Positions 8,848-40,685 of a DNA stretch of 40,686 nucleotides are shown here, piece after piece. Under the pieces are notes generated by a model. The model did not search any database. It was not told the DNA's origin and worked only from the letters and a program-made list of their open reading frames with translations. This stretch comes from Fervidobacterium thailandense (GTDB lineage Bacteria > Thermotogota > Thermotogae > Thermotogales > Fervidobacteriaceae): positions 1 to 40,686 of the forward strand of contig NZ_LWAF01000013.1 in NCBI RefSeq assembly GCF_001719065.1, given 5' to 3'. The translations under genes and the position numbers were made by a program. Positions within the stretch are counted from its first letter, which is position 1; every line of letters starts with the position of its first letter.

Positions 8848-9960
8848 ATGAGGAGAACGCTCGTGGGGGTTTTACTTTCTATCCTCGTAATTTCCACTTT
8901 TGCCACTATCAAGATAGGTGCACTACTACCTCTCACCGGCGGAGTTTCCGCTTACGGTGAACTTGTCAAGAAAGGTATCGAACTCGCACACGAACAGAAA
9001 CCGAAAGTACTTGGTCAAGATATAGAGATCATCTACATGGACACCAGAAGTGAGAAGACTGAAGCGGCGAACGGTATGGCGAGGTTGATCGACCAGCAGA
9101 AAGTTATTGCGGTTATCGGTGAGGTTATCAGCGGAAACTCGATTGCGGCCGGAGAAATCGCTGAGAAGAAGAAAATTCCAATGGTGAGCCCGACTGCGAC
9201 GAATCCGATCGTAACACAGGGAAAGAAGTTCGTTTCGCGCGTTTGCTTCATCGACCCCGTCCAGGGAACGGCTCTTGCGGAGTTTGCCTTCAAGACGCTA
9301 AAAGTAACGAAAGCCGTTGTTTTCACCGATATCGAGCAGGACTACAGCGTCGGACTTTCAAACTTCTTTATGGAAAGATTCCAGAAATACGGTGGTCAAG
9401 TGCTTCAGGTCAGATACAAATCGGGTGACCAAGAGTTCAGTTCGCAGCTTTCCCAAGCACTGGCGTTCGGAGCGCAGGCTATTGTGATTACCGGTTATTA
9501 CAACGAAATAGCCCTGATTGCACAGCAGGCCAGGGCACTGGGATACAAGGGCTTCTTCCTTGCTGGTGACGGTGCAGACGCTCCCGAGTTGATAAAAATC
9601 GCAGGACAAGCTGTTGAGGGGCTCTACTTCACCAGCCACTTCCACCCGGATGCTCCAGTTACACCGGTCACCAAACCGTTCGTCGAAGCGTTTATGAAAA
9701 AGTACGGCTCAAGGCCATCGACATTGTCGGCGCTCGGTTACGATGCTTATATGCTCATCGTTGAGGCAATCGAGAGAGCGAAGACGACAAAACCAGAGGT
9801 CATCGCTACCGCGATCAGGAGCATCAAGAATTTCCAAGGGGCTACGGGTACGATAACGATAGATCAGAATGGAAACGCAATTAAGGATGTAGTTATAATC
9901 CAAGTCAAGAACCAGAATTTCGCTTTTGCCGCGAAGATTTCGGCAAGTGCACTGAAGTAA
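8848..9960 (+). CDS. livK: Branched-chain amino-acid ABC transporter, periplasmic binding protein (first copy)
   Basis: About 370 residues. A signal peptide (MRRTLVGVLLSILVIS) is followed by the type I periplasmic-binding fold of the LivJ/LivK family: IKIGALLPLTGGVSAYGE at the start of the mature protein and repeated Rossmann-like halves (AVIGEVISGNSIAAGEIAE, TDIEQDYSVGLSNFF, GYYNEIALIAQQARALG). It captures amino acids outside the membrane for the LivHMGF pump. ATG 8848 follows AGGAGGTGG; the open frame back to 8812 lacks a ribosome site. It is closely similar along its whole length to the next gene, so the two are tandem duplicates. Confidence 0.95.
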   Translation: MRRTLVGVLLSILVISTFATIKIGALLPLTGGVSAYGELVKKGIELAHEQKPKVLGQDIEIIYMDTRSEKTEAANGMARLIDQQKVIAVIGEVISGNSIAAGEIAEKKKIPMVSPTATNPIVTQGKKFVSRVCFIDPVQGTALAEFAFKTLKVTKAVVFTDIEQDYSVGLSNFFMERFQKYGGQVLQVRYKSGDQEFSSQLSQALAFGAQAIVITGYYNEIALIAQQARALGYKGFFLAGDGADAPELIKIAGQAVEGLYFTSHFHPDAPVTPVTKPFVEAFMKKYGSRPSTLSALGYDAYMLIVEAIERAKTTKPEVIATAIRSIKNFQGATGTITIDQNGNAIKDVVIIQVKNQNFAFAAKISASALK

Positions 9961-30993: not shown

Positions 30994-31692
30994 ATGCACG
31001 CATCGGACGAAAGAGCAGCGATGCTCACACTCTGTTCAAAACTTATCGAAAAGAATTCTCCTGAGGAACTTTCTTGTTTTATCACCGAATGTGCAAGGAA
31101 GGTACTTTTAATGATTCAAAAAAGGTTAGACGAGGATATTCTTCGGGAAATTGTTAACAGCTTTTTCCTCGAAAAGCTCCACCTTGTTTGTGAAAAGATT
31201 GTGAACACGCGGCCATTAAACCCCAGTGGTTATTTTTACAAGGCCGTCGAAAATTTTGTTTATTCTTGGTTGTCGAAAAGAAACAAGCAGAAGGTTGTCA
31301 GTCTCGATAGCCCGATTGACTCCTTGCAAACGTCGCGAGACGATCCCGAATCTGTTGAGTTCATTGACGTTATTTCGGCAGAGGATGATAAACTAACCGA
31401 AAGTCTTGTCGACGTTTTGGCGGAAGAATACTTTGAACCCTTCGTTAGTTTTTGCAAAAGGAAACGCACCGATATGTTTTTGTACATCTGTTTCCTTATT
31501 TCACAGCACTACAATGAGTCAGACAGATTTCGAAATCCCTCTTGGAGTCAGGCGAATGTTTACAAGATTATTGAGAGAACAAGAAAGTTCTTAAGAGAAT
31601 TTCAAGAAGAGTTCTCCATCGAAGACAGGGTACTTGGGAAAATACTGGAGACGTTTTACCAAAACGAATGCCGTAGGTATGAAAATCGATAG
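30994..31692 (+). CDS. Divergent sigma-70/ECF-like sigma factor (CalpS-like candidate)
   Basis: 232 residues. The middle resembles sigma region 2: DEDILREIVNSFFLEKL corresponds to region 2.2, and NPSGYFYKAVENFVYSWLSKRNK to regions 2.3-2.4. After an acidic linker, the end has SQANVYKIIERTRKFLREF, like the recognition helix of region 4. Sequence conservation is low, so this rests on pattern, not on a search. Its place as first gene of a cluster with a SAVED-Lon-like gene recalls CalpS, the sigma-like protein released in the type III CRISPR Calp cascade. ATG 30994 lies 9 bases after GAGGTG. Confidence 0.6.
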   Translation: MHASDERAAMLTLCSKLIEKNSPEELSCFITECARKVLLMIQKRLDEDILREIVNSFFLEKLHLVCEKIVNTRPLNPSGYFYKAVENFVYSWLSKRNKQKVVSLDSPIDSLQTSRDDPESVEFIDVISAEDDKLTESLVDVLAEEYFEPFVSFCKRKRTDMFLYICFLISQHYNESDRFRNPSWSQANVYKIIERTRKFLREFQEEFSIEDRVLGKILETFYQNECRRYENR

Positions 31693-31803
31693 CTAACGAT
31701 AACCAAAAGTCAAGATTTCGGCTTTGTTTGGGTCATAATTAGTGGACGGCGAAAAGCTATGATCAATGAAAGATTAAACAGTGATATGAGACGAGGTGAG
31801 CGT

Positions 31804-32583
31804 ATGATTCTTCAGGAACAGTTGTCCCTTTATAGAGAATCGGTAAAGAACTTGGAACAGTTGAAGATCTTTCCAGCTTCAAGAAGCTGGGAAGTTTGTG
31901 AGGGAATTGTCTTTGCCGTGGATACGAACGTTTTCCCCATGTACGGACTGATTAGCAAGGTCAACAGTGATGAAAGACAAAAAACCGTTGATTTTGTCTA
32001 TTTAACTCCGCATATCCTTCTTGCGTCAGTTGAAGCTCCGATTTTAAGAATAGACGATGACGTGTTTGAACTGGTTAAACTCACACACATAATGCATACC
32101 GTACCAGAAAAAGAACTGAAACAAGTGGCAAGGCCCGTGAAAAAAGTTAGCGACGTTCGGAAAGTTTTGGAACACGTTGAGAAGTTAAGCAATACCCCGT
32201 ATGGAAGGATTCACAGGGAGTTTTTCGATACTGAACGCAAGTTCGTTGAACTCGTTACTGAGCTCGTTGCTGAGTTTGAAAAGATTATCGAGTTGCCACC
32301 GGATCTTTTAAACAGCCTGAAATCGGAGATTTCGGAACTTGGAGTGGCTGCTTCTTTCGGAAGGGCTGTACGCTTTGGAAAATTCATCCTCGTAAATACC
32401 GATGTTGGTGCCAAGGTCTACTTGGACGACAGACTGGTAGGAAAGGTTGGCAAGATTTTCATCAAAGGAAAATTAGTCTTCGAAGGCAAGTTAACAAATG
32501 GGATGATTCTTCTCCACCTTGCTCAGTTCTTACCGTTTTTCGAAGAAGGCGACATTGTGATCGAAGTAGACGAAAATAACTAA
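31804..32583 (+). CDS. Unknown protein with possible MazF-like N-terminal domain (CalpT-like candidate)
   Basis: 259 residues. About 30-115 look like a small MazF/CcdB-type beta barrel: a strand (CEGIVFAVDT), a second (MYGLISKV), VDFVYLTPHILLAS where MazF has its PiTs strand, and FELVKLTHIMHTVPEKEL where MazF has its QIRTID..RL segment. A helical region (about 120-190) and a C-terminal beta domain (ILVNTDVGAKVYLDDRLVG) follow. No toxin active-site residues can be assigned. Size, possible fold and neighbourhood fit CalpT, the protein cut by SAVED-Lon CalpL. ATG 31804 has GAGGTG five bases upstream; the frame back to 31759 has no ribosome site. Confidence 0.5.
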   Translation: MILQEQLSLYRESVKNLEQLKIFPASRSWEVCEGIVFAVDTNVFPMYGLISKVNSDERQKTVDFVYLTPHILLASVEAPILRIDDDVFELVKLTHIMHTVPEKELKQVARPVKKVSDVRKVLEHVEKLSNTPYGRIHREFFDTERKFVELVTELVAEFEKIIELPPDLLNSLKSEISELGVAASFGRAVRFGKFILVNTDVGAKVYLDDRLVGKVGKIFIKGKLVFEGKLTNGMILLHLAQFLPFFEEGDIVIEVDENN

Positions 32584-34472: not shown

Positions 34473-34527
34473 AATGCTTTTGAATTACACAATTTCCGTA
34501 GTACTAATTCACCTTCAACACATAACT

Positions 34528-34857: not shown

Positions 34858-35478
34858 TTGAAATCCGCTCAAATTGATCTCGGAATCAGAATAAAGATTT
34901 CTTTTACGCAGCCGGATATCTTCTACGATAACGATATTGAAGAGCGAATATTCCAAAAACTAAGGGAAAGATTGGGTATATTTACGGCAACACGTTTGAT
35001 ATCAAAAAGACGCATAGAACAAAGTGACGGTTTTTACGCCCCCGACGCGAAAATCTTCATTAACCTGCTCTCCTCAAAACAAATTCCAGAAGTCATGGCA
35101 ATTTTCGTTTCTGAGGGATTTCCAATGAAGTATACCCACCTGAAAGTGGCTGGCTTTTCCTTGGAAAGGATCTCCTACTCAAAATACTGCAGAATTCTGC
35201 CAAGTATTGGCCACATCGATACGGAAAACCTCTCTTTCGATCCACACGTACTTGAAAGATTTAGAATTAATCTCCTGAGTGCGTATGAAAGGATGTTTTC
35301 CGAAAAGATAAATGATAGCCTCTTGCTTTTACCAAGAGTAACCAAGCAAGGACTTTTGTTCGAGCTATTTGGAACACAACGGACAATAGCACTATTTTGC
35401 GTACTTGGACTAATCGATGAAAGCTTTTCGCCGATTGCTTATCCGATGCCATTGAAGCAGTCCTCGAACGGACAATAG
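34858..35478 (+). CDS. Unknown 206-residue protein of the SAVED/helicase cluster
   Basis: I do not recognise a family. The first half alternates strands and helices (RIKISFTQPDIF, IEERIFQKLRERLG, HLKVAGFSLERISY), which could be a ferredoxin-like fold. The second half is more helical (FRINLLSAYERMF) and ends with a hydrophobic stretch (TIALFCVLGLID). There is no catalytic motif, signal peptide or zinc site. It starts at TTG 34858, about 11 bases after GGGGGG; an in-frame CTG at 34849 is an alternative. Its stop overlaps the ribosome site of the RecD-like gene, so the two are coupled. Confidence 0.6.
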   Translation: MKSAQIDLGIRIKISFTQPDIFYDNDIEERIFQKLRERLGIFTATRLISKRRIEQSDGFYAPDAKIFINLLSSKQIPEVMAIFVSEGFPMKYTHLKVAGFSLERISYSKYCRILPSIGHIDTENLSFDPHVLERFRINLLSAYERMFSEKINDSLLLLPRVTKQGLLFELFGTQRTIALFCVLGLIDESFSPIAYPMPLKQSSNGQ

Positions 35479-35491
35479 GAGGTCCTTTTCC

Positions 35492-37327
35492 ATGAACCTT
35501 ACAAAGGACCAAAAGGAAGCACTGGAAAAAATTATCAAATTCCTTAGCTCACCCTCGAAACAGATCTTTATCCTAACCGGTTATGCTGGAACCGGCAAGA
35601 CAACGCTCTTGTCCCTCGTGGTCGAGTATTTAGAAAAAGTGGGAATGACTTACGCTTTACTCGCACCAACCGGTAAAGCTGCACACGTTCTAAAACAGAA
35701 AACTGGACGAAAAGCCTTTACGATTCACAAAGCAATATACGACTTTCAAGATATCGAAATAGAACAATCTGGAAGTAATTATGAAGCAACTCGCTGGGAC
35801 GACGAAGACGAAGCGGAAACTCTGGACATCACACTGAAATTTCGATTAAAGAATAAAGAAGATTTCCAAGCAGATGTTTATATCATAGATGAAGCTTCAT
35901 TAATATCGGACGAGAAAAACGGTCCGAAGAGTAATCTCGTCTTCGGAAGTGGAAAGCTCCTCAGCGACTTGATAAAATTTACAAAAGGTGCGAAACTTAT
36001 CCTCTGTGGAGATCCTGCCCAACTTCCTCCGGTGGGTTCTAATGAATCTGTAGCCTTAGATGAGGAGTACATAAGAAGTAAATTCGGTTTGGTGGTGGAA
36101 AAAGCCGAACTTCGCGAGGTAGTACGAATTGGGGAAGATAACCACCTATTGAAGCTACTAATTTCACTTCGAAAAGCTATAGAATCCGAGCAATACGGGA
36201 ATATCAATATTCCAGAAGAATTATGTGTTTGTCACAGCAGCATTGAAGACCTCGTAAGGAAACTTTTTTCAGCAAAGGACGTAAGTTCTGTTATAATCAC
36301 TCATACCAACGAGGCTGTTCAGTACTACAACTCCTTAGTTCACTCGAAAATCTTCGGTGACGGTCAAGCACTCCATCCCAACCAAAACCTATTGGTTTAC
36401 AAAAACTACTACCCTTCTCCAGAACTCCAACTGTTCAATGGTGAATTGATAACTGTTGTTGATGTTGGTGAAATAGAAATCGTTGATGTTTCGTCGAAAA
36501 GAGAGGACAAAGTCTCCTATCAAAATTGTACCATCCGCTTTTTTGACTTTGAAAAGAACAGGTACGAAATCCTGAGAACGAAGATACTCCTTGACTTCTT
36601 CCATTCTGAAGATCCGGACCTCTCCCCTGAGCTATACAGGAAATTATTCCGAGTGGCTTTGCTAAAAAATTATGAGCTCAGAAATTTCAACAACGAATTG
36701 AGGAAACTTGAACACGAGCTAAAGAAGAATGCTGAGAATGCAATCCTGAAAGAAAAATTCCGATTTCTCAAGAAATATTTTGGAAGGCTACTCTTAAGCA
36801 ACCCGTATTTCAACCCTCTCCTGGCTAAATTGGGTTACGCAGTCACCTGTCACAAGGCACAAGGAAGTGAGTGGGAAAATGTCATCGTAGACTTGGCAAC
36901 AAAGAACCTGGCACCGGGCAACGAACAATTTTGCAGGTGGTTGTACACAGCTTTCACCCGAGTAAAAAAAGACCTCTTCATCGTGAATTGCAATGTCCTG
37001 AATCGATTTTCGAGGATAAATGTTGCACCGATTAAAGTTGAGTCATTGGATAAGATTTCCAAATGCCAAGAAATAAATGACGATAGACTGGCTGACGAAA
37101 AAATAGTTCAGTCGTTAAACAGATACGGCTTTCAAATTCTTGCCTTTAGAAAATGCCATTTCCGAGATAGATACGAACTTTCTTGTGAACTTGGTCGGGC
37201 CAGAATAGACCTTCTCTACGACTCCAAAGGGTTTTACACAAGACTTGAAATAACTGTGTCAAACGAAGAAGTCAAGCAATTGATGGAGCAGTGGGTTTCT
37301 GAGTTGATGGCTTCAAAGGACTGTTGA
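35492..37327 (+). CDS. RecD-like superfamily 1B DNA helicase
   Basis: 611 residues. Motif I is GYAGTGKTT, Ia LLAPTGKAAHVL, II YIIDEASL, III LCGDPAQLPPVG, V TCHKAQGSEWENVIVD, VI YTAFTRVKKDLFI. These are the RecD2/Dda-type signatures of 5'-3' helicases. A charged insertion follows motif Ia (around 90-120) and another sits around 380-430. The last 70 residues (QILAFRKCHFRDRYELS...LEITVSN) are an extra domain I cannot name. No RecB/RecC-type partner is visible, so it is a stand-alone helicase within this cluster. ATG 35492 follows AGGAGG. Confidence 0.92.
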   Translation: MNLTKDQKEALEKIIKFLSSPSKQIFILTGYAGTGKTTLLSLVVEYLEKVGMTYALLAPTGKAAHVLKQKTGRKAFTIHKAIYDFQDIEIEQSGSNYEATRWDDEDEAETLDITLKFRLKNKEDFQADVYIIDEASLISDEKNGPKSNLVFGSGKLLSDLIKFTKGAKLILCGDPAQLPPVGSNESVALDEEYIRSKFGLVVEKAELREVVRIGEDNHLLKLLISLRKAIESEQYGNINIPEELCVCHSSIEDLVRKLFSAKDVSSVIITHTNEAVQYYNSLVHSKIFGDGQALHPNQNLLVYKNYYPSPELQLFNGELITVVDVGEIEIVDVSSKREDKVSYQNCTIRFFDFEKNRYEILRTKILLDFFHSEDPDLSPELYRKLFRVALLKNYELRNFNNELRKLEHELKKNAENAILKEKFRFLKKYFGRLLLSNPYFNPLLAKLGYAVTCHKAQGSEWENVIVDLATKNLAPGNEQFCRWLYTAFTRVKKDLFIVNCNVLNRFSRINVAPIKVESLDKISKCQEINDDRLADEKIVQSLNRYGFQILAFRKCHFRDRYELSCELGRARIDLLYDSKGFYTRLEITVSNEEVKQLMEQWVSELMASKDC

Positions 37328-37376
37328 ATTAAAAGACAAATTCTCGTTGAGCTTGAATTTCGTGGAGGTGAGCTTC

Positions 37377-38864
37377 TTGGCATTTGTCAATGTTTTGAGG
37401 ATGAACGTGCAAACATACATCGAGCTCCTCCGAAACGGGGTAATAACAATTGAAGAGGCTGTCAAAGATTTGGAAATGCTCGATGAAGATGAACGTGACA
37501 TAAAATTGCGACTACAATACGGGATTGTTGAAGTTCTCATGAGAGGTGGAGCTCTGGATAGTTCGATACTCTCAAAAGTCCTTCAACTACCAGACGACTT
37601 CGGGACGTTAAAATTACTTGGCAGCTACAAATTTGAATTTCCCGTCGTTATCACACGAAATAAGAGCGGAAAAATCGTAGAGGGATTAGCCATTGAAAGT
37701 TCGGTATCCTTTACCAACATTCCGAACGCGGAAGAAGGGGTCAAAATTATTGAAAACATTCTTGGAAAAAAGCTTATTGTTCTCTTTAGCGAACCTTTCT
37801 CGGGCAATTCATTTATGCTCCCACTCTACCTCTCCGTTGCAACATGTGGAAAGATACAAGAAATGCTGCCTCACATCCTTTTCACCGGAGGTTTTAAGAG
37901 CCTTCACGGACTATTGCCCACCGATTACGTAGACGCAAAGCAAAAAACGGCAAATGCGGAAGGAAAAGAGTTGGTAATTATAGATGAGCTCGGAGATTTG
38001 AGAAAATTCAGCAACTTCATAACAAGTGAAGAAAAGCACGTGCCTCTTTTTGTTGGCTCGAAAATCACGCAAAAAAAGGCGGAGGATGAGTACAAAAAAC
38101 TTCATACTGCCGTTTTAGAGACCAAAAACGTTCCTACTCCTGAGCTCTTGGTTAAGCTCCTTGGAGAGGAACCATACGTTTGCTGGGAGGGGGATTTAGA
38201 TGTATCACAGTTCGAAGACATAGCGCAGGAAATTGTCGAATTTCTCAGAGGCGACAGGTTTAAGATACAAAAGGTCGGTGACTTTATTCCGCACATTGCG
38301 ATGAAGGTTCCAATATCGCTTGCGTTTTTAGTCGGTCTCAAACTTAAACCTTACAGAAAGCTCGTTTTATACCACTTCGACACAGATAAATATTTTCCCG
38401 TTCTTGATCTGAGCAGCAACCCAAGAGAAGTTGCTTCTCGTAATGTTAGCCAGGGGAACTTCAAAAAAATCGAGTTTTCGCTTAAAAATTTGACGAATGA
38501 CTCGAATACAGTTCTTAGTAATCATGAGTTCGCAATAATCATCGATATGGCTGGACGCTCGATCCAGGACGCCGTTGAAAAGTTTCTTTTAACGAACGAT
38601 AAAAAAATGCAAGTGGTGACAATCACACACAAGAACAGCGGTTGCGTTCCTCTTTCTAATTGGAGTGAAGAGGTGGCTGAGATTAAGAGTGTGATTAACA
38701 TGTTCAACTCGAGCAAAACGGTGTATCATCTTTTCTTCAGTTGCCCCGTACCAATTGGTTTTGGTCTGGGACTGGCTCTGAAGGAGGATACCCACAAACT
38801 AAACGTCTACCACTTCTTTCAAGGAGAATATCGATTAGTCTATTCAAACATCCAAAAACAATGA
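37377..38864 (+). CDS. Lon-like protease fused to a SAVED domain (CalpL-like)
   Basis: About 495 residues from TTG 37377, which has GGAGGTG six bases upstream. A helical N-terminus (to about 85) is followed by a Lon-type fold at about 88-250. SGNSFMLPLYLSVATC resembles the GPSAG helix (putative Ser145), and LFTGGFKSLHGLLP plus DAKQKT resembles the TGeIxLxGxVLP..K region (putative Lys188). The Ser-Lys distance is 43, equal to Ser679-Lys722 of E. coli Lon. The C-terminal half has the paired SAVED pattern: KVPISLAFLVGLKL with LVLYHFDTDKYFPVLDL, then HLFFSCPVPIGFGLGLAL with LNVYHFFQGEY. SAVED domains bind cyclic oligonucleotides, so this is probably a protease switched on by CRISPR- or CBASS-type second messengers. 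Confidence 0.75.
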   Translation: MAFVNVLRMNVQTYIELLRNGVITIEEAVKDLEMLDEDERDIKLRLQYGIVEVLMRGGALDSSILSKVLQLPDDFGTLKLLGSYKFEFPVVITRNKSGKIVEGLAIESSVSFTNIPNAEEGVKIIENILGKKLIVLFSEPFSGNSFMLPLYLSVATCGKIQEMLPHILFTGGFKSLHGLLPTDYVDAKQKTANAEGKELVIIDELGDLRKFSNFITSEEKHVPLFVGSKITQKKAEDEYKKLHTAVLETKNVPTPELLVKLLGEEPYVCWEGDLDVSQFEDIAQEIVEFLRGDRFKIQKVGDFIPHIAMKVPISLAFLVGLKLKPYRKLVLYHFDTDKYFPVLDLSSNPREVASRNVSQGNFKKIEFSLKNLTNDSNTVLSNHEFAIIIDMAGRSIQDAVEKFLLTNDKKMQVVTITHKNSGCVPLSNWSEEVAEIKSVINMFNSSKTVYHLFFSCPVPIGFGLGLALKEDTHKLNVYHFFQGEYRLVYSNIQKQ

Positions 38865-38887: not shown

Positions 38888-39667
38888 GTGGCAGAGCACG
38901 TACCAGTGCTCATTGCAATATCGTCGAGACTTGATGAAAAGCAACTCCTGGAAACATACACGGACTTAAAAACCAAAATTTCCGAAAACTATCAAGTCAG
39001 CTCGGAGGAAGTTTTGTACATCAGAAAGAGTGACTTGACAGATGATTGGGAAAGTGAACTGGAGAAAGTGAGTGAGATATTAGGCAAAGCGTTTTTAAAC
39101 GCAAAAACCGTGGCACACGTCGCATTAATGGTGCCTGCAGCTTTCGCATTCGGCCTTGGTGTAACTCTATCACGCTCCCAACTACCTCCCATGGTTATTT
39201 ACCACTTTCAATCGAACGAGTATATTCCAGTGATTGATTTAACGGACAATCCCAGAAAAATTAAAGACATCTCACAGCCCTTTGAACAAACCAATGTTTC
39301 ATTTACAAAGGGACAAGATACAAACCACTGCGCAGTTCTCGTACAACTTGCATCCCACTCATTAAAGGGGAGTGTTCTTAAGTATCTGGAGACCGTTGGT
39401 CTGAACCCTTCTGTTCTGGAAATCTCTCACAAAAATGCGGGAAATCTACAGACTTGGGACTGGTCAAAGGAAGTGGCCGAAATTTACAAGGCAGTCCAAG
39501 AAGTTAGAAAAGACTCATACATTGAAAGATTTCATATTTTTCTCAGCTCTCCAGTAAGCATTGCCTTTGCATTTGGACTCGCTCTCGGGAAATACGATAA
39601 ATTGACGATTTACCAATACGTCCCAAATTCGCCAAACATCTATACCGCTGTACTTAGCTTTGATTAA
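38888..39667 (+). CDS. Stand-alone SAVED-domain protein
   Basis: About 259 residues. It carries the same two SAVED half-motifs as its neighbour: HVALMVPAAFAFGLGVTLS with MVIYHFQSNEYIPVIDL, and HIFLSSPVSIAFAFGLALG with LTIYQYVPN. The central segment KNAGNLQTWDWSKEVAEI matches KNSGCVPLSNWSEEVAEI of the SAVED-Lon protein, so the two are tandem paralogues. There is no effector domain fused to it. It could bind and buffer a cyclic nucleotide, degrade it, or co-assemble with the protease. GTG 38888 is preferred: GGGAGG lies 7 bases upstream, and the TTG at 38873 sits inside that site. Confidence 0.75.
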   Translation: MAEHVPVLIAISSRLDEKQLLETYTDLKTKISENYQVSSEEVLYIRKSDLTDDWESELEKVSEILGKAFLNAKTVAHVALMVPAAFAFGLGVTLSRSQLPPMVIYHFQSNEYIPVIDLTDNPRKIKDISQPFEQTNVSFTKGQDTNHCAVLVQLASHSLKGSVLKYLETVGLNPSVLEISHKNAGNLQTWDWSKEVAEIYKAVQEVRKDSYIERFHIFLSSPVSIAFAFGLALGKYDKLTIYQYVPNSPNIYTAVLSFD

Positions 39668-39756
39668 AGTAGAGATTTTCATATTATCCTATGCACATGC
39701 GCGCAAACTCAACCTTATAAGACATTCCAGATCTCAATTATTCGCTGAGTCCAGAT

Positions 39757-39787
39757 AAAAAAGGCCTCCAAAACGGAGGCCTTTTTT
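39757..39787. terminator. Bidirectional terminator between the SAVED cluster and the CRISPR array
   Basis: A 13-bp perfect stem, AAAAAAGGCCTCC (39757-39769) with GGAGGCCTTTTTT (39775-39787), loop AAAAC. T-runs on both strands suit the convergent gene cluster and array. Confidence 0.93.
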
Positions 39788-39859
39788 GTTTCTTCATTTT
39801 TCACCTCACAAAGTCGCTACAACTTCCAGCACCTTCGCAAAGTTCCGTTACAAACCGCA

Positions 39860-40685
39860 GTTTTAATCGCTTATTGGGATGCTACAAACTAAGTGTTCAG
39901 GTGATATATAGAACCCCGATGGAAGCCTTTCAATCCCTCATGGGGACGCTACGAACCAAACTTGAAGACGATAAGTTCACAGTCTCAACGTAGTTTCAAT
40001 CCCTCATAGGGGCGCTACAAACGATGTTTGTATACGACGAAGAAACAAAAGAGTTGACGTTTCAATCCCTCATAGGGACGCTACAAACCTTAATCAACCT
40101 CAATCTCATAATACGCATCGCTCAGGTTTCAATCCCTCATAGGGACGCTACAAACGCGTAAACGACGGAATAGATTTCTACGAAAGATACCGTTTCAATC
40201 CCTCATAGGGACGCTACAAACTTACGGCTTGCAAAAGAACGGTCGGACGTTCACATTTTAAGTTTCAATCCCTCATAGGGACGCTACAAACAAAGACTAA
40301 GCAACTGTCAGAAATCATGTAGTCCCGGTTTCAATCCCTCATAGGGACGCTACAAACCAGTTTATGTGTACAGCGTTCCGATACATCGAAGGCGTTTCAA
40401 TCCCTCATAGGGACGCTACAAACGATAGTATGCCAGCAAAACTGCTATCGTATTACGGGTTTCAATCCCTCATAGGGGCGCTACAAACTTGTGGCCATGT
40501 CTTTCGAAGCGATTGATCTGAGAGGTTTCAATCCCTCATAGGGACGCTACAAACGCCTCCTCGCTGGGAGGAGGTGACATATCCAGAGATGTTTCAATCC
40601 CTCATAGGGACGCTACAAACTTTTGAGCCTCGGCTAAGCTTAGCTCCTTTACCGAGTTTCAATCCCTCATAGGGACGCTACAAAC
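39860..40685 (-). CRISPR. CRISPR array, distal (trailer) end, continuing past the window
   Basis: Thirteen 30-base repeats and 12 unique spacers are visible. The plus-strand repeat begins GTTTCAATCC and ends GACGCTACAAAC. Repeats start at 39860 (degenerate), 39927 (degenerate), 39993, 40059, 40126, 40192, 40262, 40328, 40394, 40459, 40525, 40591 and 40656. Spacers are 35-40 bases, mostly 36. Transcription is inferred to be on the minus strand: read that way each repeat ends in ATTGAAAC, the usual 5' handle of type I-B/III crRNAs, and the decayed repeats lie at the far left as expected for the trailer. Repeats 39993 and 40459 share an A-to-G change. Leader and cas genes must lie outside to the right. 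Confidence 0.97.

Follow-up and report, generated by a model that had tools for sequence, protein, structure and literature searches.

A stretch of 40,686 nucleotides from Fervidobacterium thailandense (RefSeq assembly GCF_001719065.1, contig NZ_LWAF01000013.1; hereafter the window) raises the question of how a protease predicted to be activated by a messenger is switched off when residues of its site for destroying that messenger are replaced. The protease gene, at 37377..38864 on the + strand, encodes a CalpL, in which a Lon-type protease domain is fused to a SAVED domain, and it is followed at 38888..39667 (+) by a gene for a stand-alone SAVED protein. The CalpLs studied so far are also ring nucleases, with a composite site formed by the His face of one protomer and the Arg/Lys face of the next (PMC11417357; PMC12751052). 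In the window CalpL the Lys and the His of this site have been replaced, and in the stand-alone SAVED the site is complete. On these residues we think it probable that the system is split, with CalpL sensing cyclic tetra-adenylate (cA4) and cutting its substrate CalpT, and the neighbouring SAVED degrading cA4 as an off-switch in a separate gene.

CalpL and its catalytic dyad

Residues are numbered here in the longest frame, which begins at 37347 and has 505 residues; numbers from the plausible TTG start at 37377 are lower by 10. This start has a ribosome-binding-like GGAGGTGAG ahead of it (37364-37372), and the frame is uninterrupted. PADLOC assigns the product to CRISPR-Lon (2e-70) and SAVED4--SAVED_LON (3.5e-71), and a phmmer search of PDB sequences matches residues 39-497 to CalpL of Sulfurihydrogenibium sp. 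YO3AOP1 (SsCalpL; 3.6e-16). A profile of the CalpL family finds SsCalpL at 1.9e-79, and it also matches many Lon proteases across the catalytic stretch with weak E-values. The SAVED half is C-terminal (about residues 236-505; 38052..38861, +) and is the only domain reported by Pfam (4.3e-10, above cut-off), whose scan of this protein found neither an AAA nor a Lon model. The first-pass annotation of this DNA had warned that the protease might escape a routine search, which is true of Pfam but not of PADLOC or the PDB sequence search, both of which find CalpL at once. It had also proposed fold prediction as a check: an AlphaFold model built from three sequences (predicted local distance difference test score, pLDDT, 65) matches CalpL of Candidatus Cloacimonas acidaminovorans (CcaCalpL; 9eyi_A) with Z 27.7 over 414 residues and SsCalpL (7qda) with Z 27.0, and its residues 227-505 match SAVED structures. 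Loops near the active site (residues 152-173 and 181-191) have pLDDT <50, so that the model gives no reliable distance between Ser and Lys.

The predicted dyad consists of Ser155 in the motif SGNSF (codon 37809..37811, +) and Lys198 in DAKQK (codon 37938..37940, +). These residues align with Ser152 and Lys193, the catalytic dyad of SsCalpL, and both are invariant across the CalpL family alignment (23-29% identity). It is this homology, to a solved structure and across the family, that provides the stronger evidence for the dyad. The first-pass annotation had relied on register, noting that Ser and Lys lie 43 residues apart as in Escherichia coli Lon, and that a Thr lies 11 residues from a Pro and 18 from the Lys in both proteins. 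Counting gives exactly these values for the window CalpL (S155-K198, T180-P191 and T180-K198) and for the E. coli Lon protease domain (PDB chain 1rr9, which has Ala in place of Ser). Nevertheless, the Ser-Lys spacing is weak evidence by itself, because three such pairs exist within the protein, the pattern was chosen after the sequence had been looked at, and the dyad spacing in SsCalpL is 41; given that last value, the exact match to Lon is in part a coincidence. The joint S/TG/P/K pattern was obtained in 10 of 20,000 shuffles, a count to be read with the same post hoc choice in mind. Chance was thus considered as an explanation, and the spacing alone was found unpersuasive and the homology persuasive. 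The Lon-type domain is supported by PADLOC, the SsCalpL alignment, the family profile and the predicted fold. The novelty that had been implied for the protease is not, since CalpL has been described in the literature and the Ser-Lys finding adds a member to a known family.

Ring-nuclease residues in CalpL and in its SAVED neighbour

At the ring-nuclease site (SsCalpL numbering), K364 is replaced by Ala (Ala363; codon 38433..38435, +), S391 by Gly and H392 by Arg (Arg404; the Gly-Arg pair at 38553..38558, +). The replaced Lys and His correspond to Lys99 and His128 of AcrIII-2, a viral stand-alone SAVED (9r8s), and the Arg-for-His392 change is also seen in a pairwise HMMER alignment with SsCalpL. 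Only the Arg is kept from the conserved set R361/K364/H392 (Arg360 in the window CalpL). The positions of SsCalpL H345 and H474 and of AcrIII-2 S194 are kept as well, and an Arg stands at that of SsCalpL K366. The alignment comprised 13 other complete CalpLs of the family, a C-terminal piece of one more, SsCalpL and AcrIII-2, and the Arg, Lys and His are retained in every compared sequence except the window CalpL; outside the Thermotogota, CalpL sampling extended to SsCalpL and, from papers, CcaCalpL. In a leave-one-out comparison of 13 non-redundant sequences, the window CalpL retains 10 of 11 Lon invariants and 14 of 20 SAVED invariants, and no other sequence has lost the Lys or the His. Self-limitation by an intrinsic ring nuclease is known from the two studied members and does not belong to the family definition.

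The effect of such changes may be gauged from mutants of the studied proteins. In SsCalpL, H392A removed most of the nuclease activity, increased stacking with cA4 and allowed complete CalpT cleavage, R361E abolished cA4-induced oligomerisation, and mixing H392E with R361E restored the nuclease (PMC11417357). The residues reported for the ring nuclease of CcaCalpL are R358, K361 and H396, and AcrIII-2 variants at R96, K99 and H128 lost activity (PMC12751052). As the window CalpL has lost the His and kept the Arg, it resembles SsCalpL H392A and not R361E, and is expected to be poor in nuclease activity yet able to stack.

The stand-alone SAVED starts with GTG at 38888, 23 bp past the CalpL stop and preceded by GGGAGGG; its longest open frame, from 38873, gives 264 amino acids. 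It consists of SAVED only (Pfam 5.6e-20), with no fused effector, and phmmer matches it to CalpL (1.5e-20) and to AcrIII-2 (1.3e-17). All five residues of the AcrIII-2 site (equivalents of R96, K99, H128, Q178 and S194) are kept, making it a candidate ring nuclease of the kind tentatively named Crn5 for cellular stand-alone SAVEDs in type III loci (PMC12751052, which names two Crn5 accessions). A second stand-alone SAVED, 46% identical, is encoded on contig C4 of the same genome (L024:6491-7288, G000:C4), after a CARF7-CYTH-HD protein (PADLOC, G000) where a Cmr type III-B locus ends, and a third holds the same position in another species of the genus (L040:19105-19773, G010:C22). In both cases the preceding protein has 961-966 amino acids, and both SAVEDs have Ala where AcrIII-2 has Ser194. 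Of 103 genomes of the phylum, one, that of the window, has a stand-alone SAVED next to CalpL, and the literature searched held no description of a CalpL without its ring site adjoining a stand-alone SAVED gene.

An apparent third species with a stand-alone SAVED (G083) was rejected, since its gene corresponds to the C-terminal portion of a CalpL interrupted by a change of frame. That CalpL, from another family of the order (L063:8898-10435), is covered by two frames overlapping at 9455-9467, a pattern that either a frameshift, an error in sequencing or a genuine split could produce.

How the protease would be switched off

In the split system that we favour, detection of foreign RNA would lead Cas10 to make cA4, which would be bound by the SAVED domain of CalpL and cause CalpL to stack into oligomers. 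The Lon domain, through Ser155 and Lys198, would then cut CalpT, freeing the sigma factor CalpS and changing transcription. With Lys, Ser and His replaced by Ala, Gly and Arg, CalpL would not break down cA4 itself, and with Arg360 retained, which is needed for stacking, its protease would stay on until cA4 had been removed by something else. The stand-alone SAVED, with its complete site, probably degrades cA4 in trans, either alone or at a joint with CalpL. In this scheme every activity, the identity of the ligand as cA4 and the sharing of tasks between CalpL and SAVED are predictions from the sequences. The version with a joint is a tentative one, and we hold it to be rather unlikely: SAVED would cap the CalpL filament, and the ring nuclease would work only at the contact between the Arg face of CalpL and the His face of SAVED. 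It is suggested by the way in which two half-dead mutants of SsCalpL regain activity when mixed. If it were true, the number of caps, and not the protease itself, would set the duration of the transcriptional response.

Several points weigh against the split system. The losses of six of 20 SAVED invariants and one of 11 Lon invariants are few enough for the difference to be due to chance, and the window CalpL lies on a long branch (2.19), so that general divergence could explain some of the changes. Three of the lost SAVED residues are glycines (G321V, G334K and G479K), which might harm cA4 binding itself. The exchange of His for Arg may not be a full knockout, because some nuclease survives in SsCalpL R361A and H345A/H392A (PMC11417357). 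Furthermore, the loss in CalpL and the gain of SAVED coincide only once among the 103 genomes, support for CalpS is weak, and genes of a type III effector complex are absent from the contig that carries calpL.

The surviving nuclease of those mutants favours an ordinary CalpL that still degrades cA4 through a rearranged site (using, for example, Arg404 or a basic residue soon after Ala363), for which SAVED would be a redundant extra ring nuclease. The retained H345, H474, R361 and S194 positions and the Arg at the K366 position are consistent with this, but Arg is a poor general acid or base, of the three positions essential in AcrIII-2 two are altered, and the lost His is the pocket residue with the strongest loss effect in SsCalpL and is essential in AcrIII-2; we regard this reading as unlikely. 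The lost SAVED invariants, the three glycines among them, could also indicate that the SAVED domain of CalpL is degenerate and senses cA4 poorly, with the stand-alone SAVED acting as the true sensor and bringing CalpL into an active stack by recruitment or templating. The weak grouping of the window CalpL SAVED with stand-alone SAVEDs in the tree (78/83) agrees with such a role, and tree tests are compatible both with one shared origin of these SAVEDs and with separate ones. However, neither the stacking Arg nor the pocket His residues H345 and H474 have been lost and the Pfam SAVED match is still above cut-off, and we place this sensor in trans just behind the rearranged site in probability.

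It is a good deal less likely that the ligand has changed, such that the SAVED domain of CalpL reads cyclic tri-adenylate (cA3), cyclic hexa-adenylate (cA6) or another messenger and its cA4 ring site has been released from constraint. Mixed messengers within one type III locus are very rare (PMC11229360), and the genome also encodes a Csx1-like CARF-HEPN effector and a CARF7 protein. Least credible is the view that the stand-alone SAVED, instead of being a partner of CalpL, is an anti-CRISPR (AcrIII-2) captured from a virus. The viral AcrIII-2 likewise consists of SAVED alone, is similar in length and is matched at 1.3e-17, but the match to CalpL is slightly better, and the nearest relatives lie in chromosomes, next to a type III-B locus both in this genome and in a second species of the genus. 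Searches of viral contigs found no relative of the stand-alone SAVED, and tblastn against plasmids and phages found none of CalpL or SAVED; the absence from phages carries little weight, since that search also missed the known AcrIII-2. Scans of genome and viral contigs returned only two Thermosipho loci, which were already among the family genomes.

CalpL, its dyad, its ring nuclease and the viral stand-alone SAVED ring nuclease have all been described, and what matters here is the split more than the protease, which is known. If the split system is real, it would be a natural counterpart of the laboratory-engineered, nuclease-deficient and more persistent CalpL, paired with a separate off-switch, and a natural test case for why type III effectors carry ring nucleases. 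It would also support the tentative Crn5 family and provide a CalpL without self-quenching for CRISPR-based sensing.

Genomic surroundings and known systems

Upstream of calpL, the same strand carries in order a CalpS candidate, CalpT, a UvrD helicase, a Cas6-like gene and a superfamily 1 (SF1) helicase. The assignment of CalpT, the predicted anti-sigma substrate of CalpL (31759..32583, +; 4.8 kb upstream), is convincing, with a PADLOC CRISPR-T match of 8e-13 and, in seven family genomes, a homologue that directly adjoins calpL. CalpS, a possible sigma factor of the extracytoplasmic function type (30994..31692, +), is weakly supported: PADLOC gives a helix-turn-helix match (1.3e-5), and the homologues L038 and L033, located directly before calpT, match Sigma70_r2 at 7.9e-5 and 0.014, below the cut-off. 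An AlphaFold model of this candidate from three sequences was set aside because of its pLDDT of 43.

The genes calpS, calpT and calpL are side by side in Thermosipho-type genomes, adjoining csm or cmr genes. As calpT is at least 10 kb from calpL in other members of the family, its separation in the window is not unusual. Four genomes (G002, G003, G004 and G005; loci L032, L034, L035 and L036) have calpL without adjacent calpS or calpT, and of these, three have calpT at a distance of at least 10 kb, whereas in G004 none was found. In Thermosipho-type loci, calpS is preceded by a gene of some 140 codons (L029:7320-7733, L030:12134-12553, L033:12325-12750).

The Cas6-like gene (34858..35478, +; a weak match to PADLOC Cas6, 1.4e-5) lies between the UvrD and SF1 helicases and is preceded by terminator-like hairpins at 34527 and 34706; it may be the first gene of a unit that ends with CalpL and SAVED. 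Its relatives adjoin Cas6 in Thermosipho-type loci. The SF1 (RecD/PIF1-like) helicase directly upstream of CalpL (35492..37327, +; Pfam AAA_30, 4.4e-24; PADLOC candidate PDC-M16A, 7.5e-134) weakly matches TBP-TOTE at its C-terminus, and G011 has a relative some 10 kb away from calpL. The unit is closed by a strong terminator-like hairpin of 17 pairs with a T-rich tail (39753..39791, +). Beyond it, a CRISPR array with 12 repeats of GTTTCAATCCCTCATAGGGACGCTACAAAC (39927..40685, +) is cut by the contig end; its repeat also occurs in arrays on two other contigs (G000:C27:6669-7160 and G000:C7:93188-93550), the C7 copy with one fixed base change. Elsewhere in the genome there are two cyclase-type Cas10 genes, type III-B (Cmr2) on contig C4 and type III-A (Csm1) on C30, both with GGDD.

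Of the known systems, SsCalpL (7qda, 8b0r) shares with the window CalpL the order of Lon then SAVED, alignment over nearly the full length, the dyad, and R361, H345 and H474. It differs in identity (about 22-24% over structural alignments), in dyad spacing, in having K364, S391 and H392 where the window CalpL has A, G and R, and in its gene neighbourhood, as the window calpL is followed by a stand-alone SAVED and is not adjacent to calpT. CcaCalpL (9eyi, 9eyj, 9eyk) is the best structural match by Z, although only the Arg of its three ring-nuclease residues is retained. The gene after calpL is like AcrIII-2 and the tentative Crn5 in being a stand-alone SAVED with the full set of site residues, and unlike them in being chromosomal and paired with CalpL. 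E. coli Lon, a LonA protease, has the same Ser-Lys spacing and the same register of TG, P and K, but the whole-protein match of the window CalpL to Lon is not significant, and the window CalpL is without the AAA+ ATPase domain and has SAVED as its predicted sensor.
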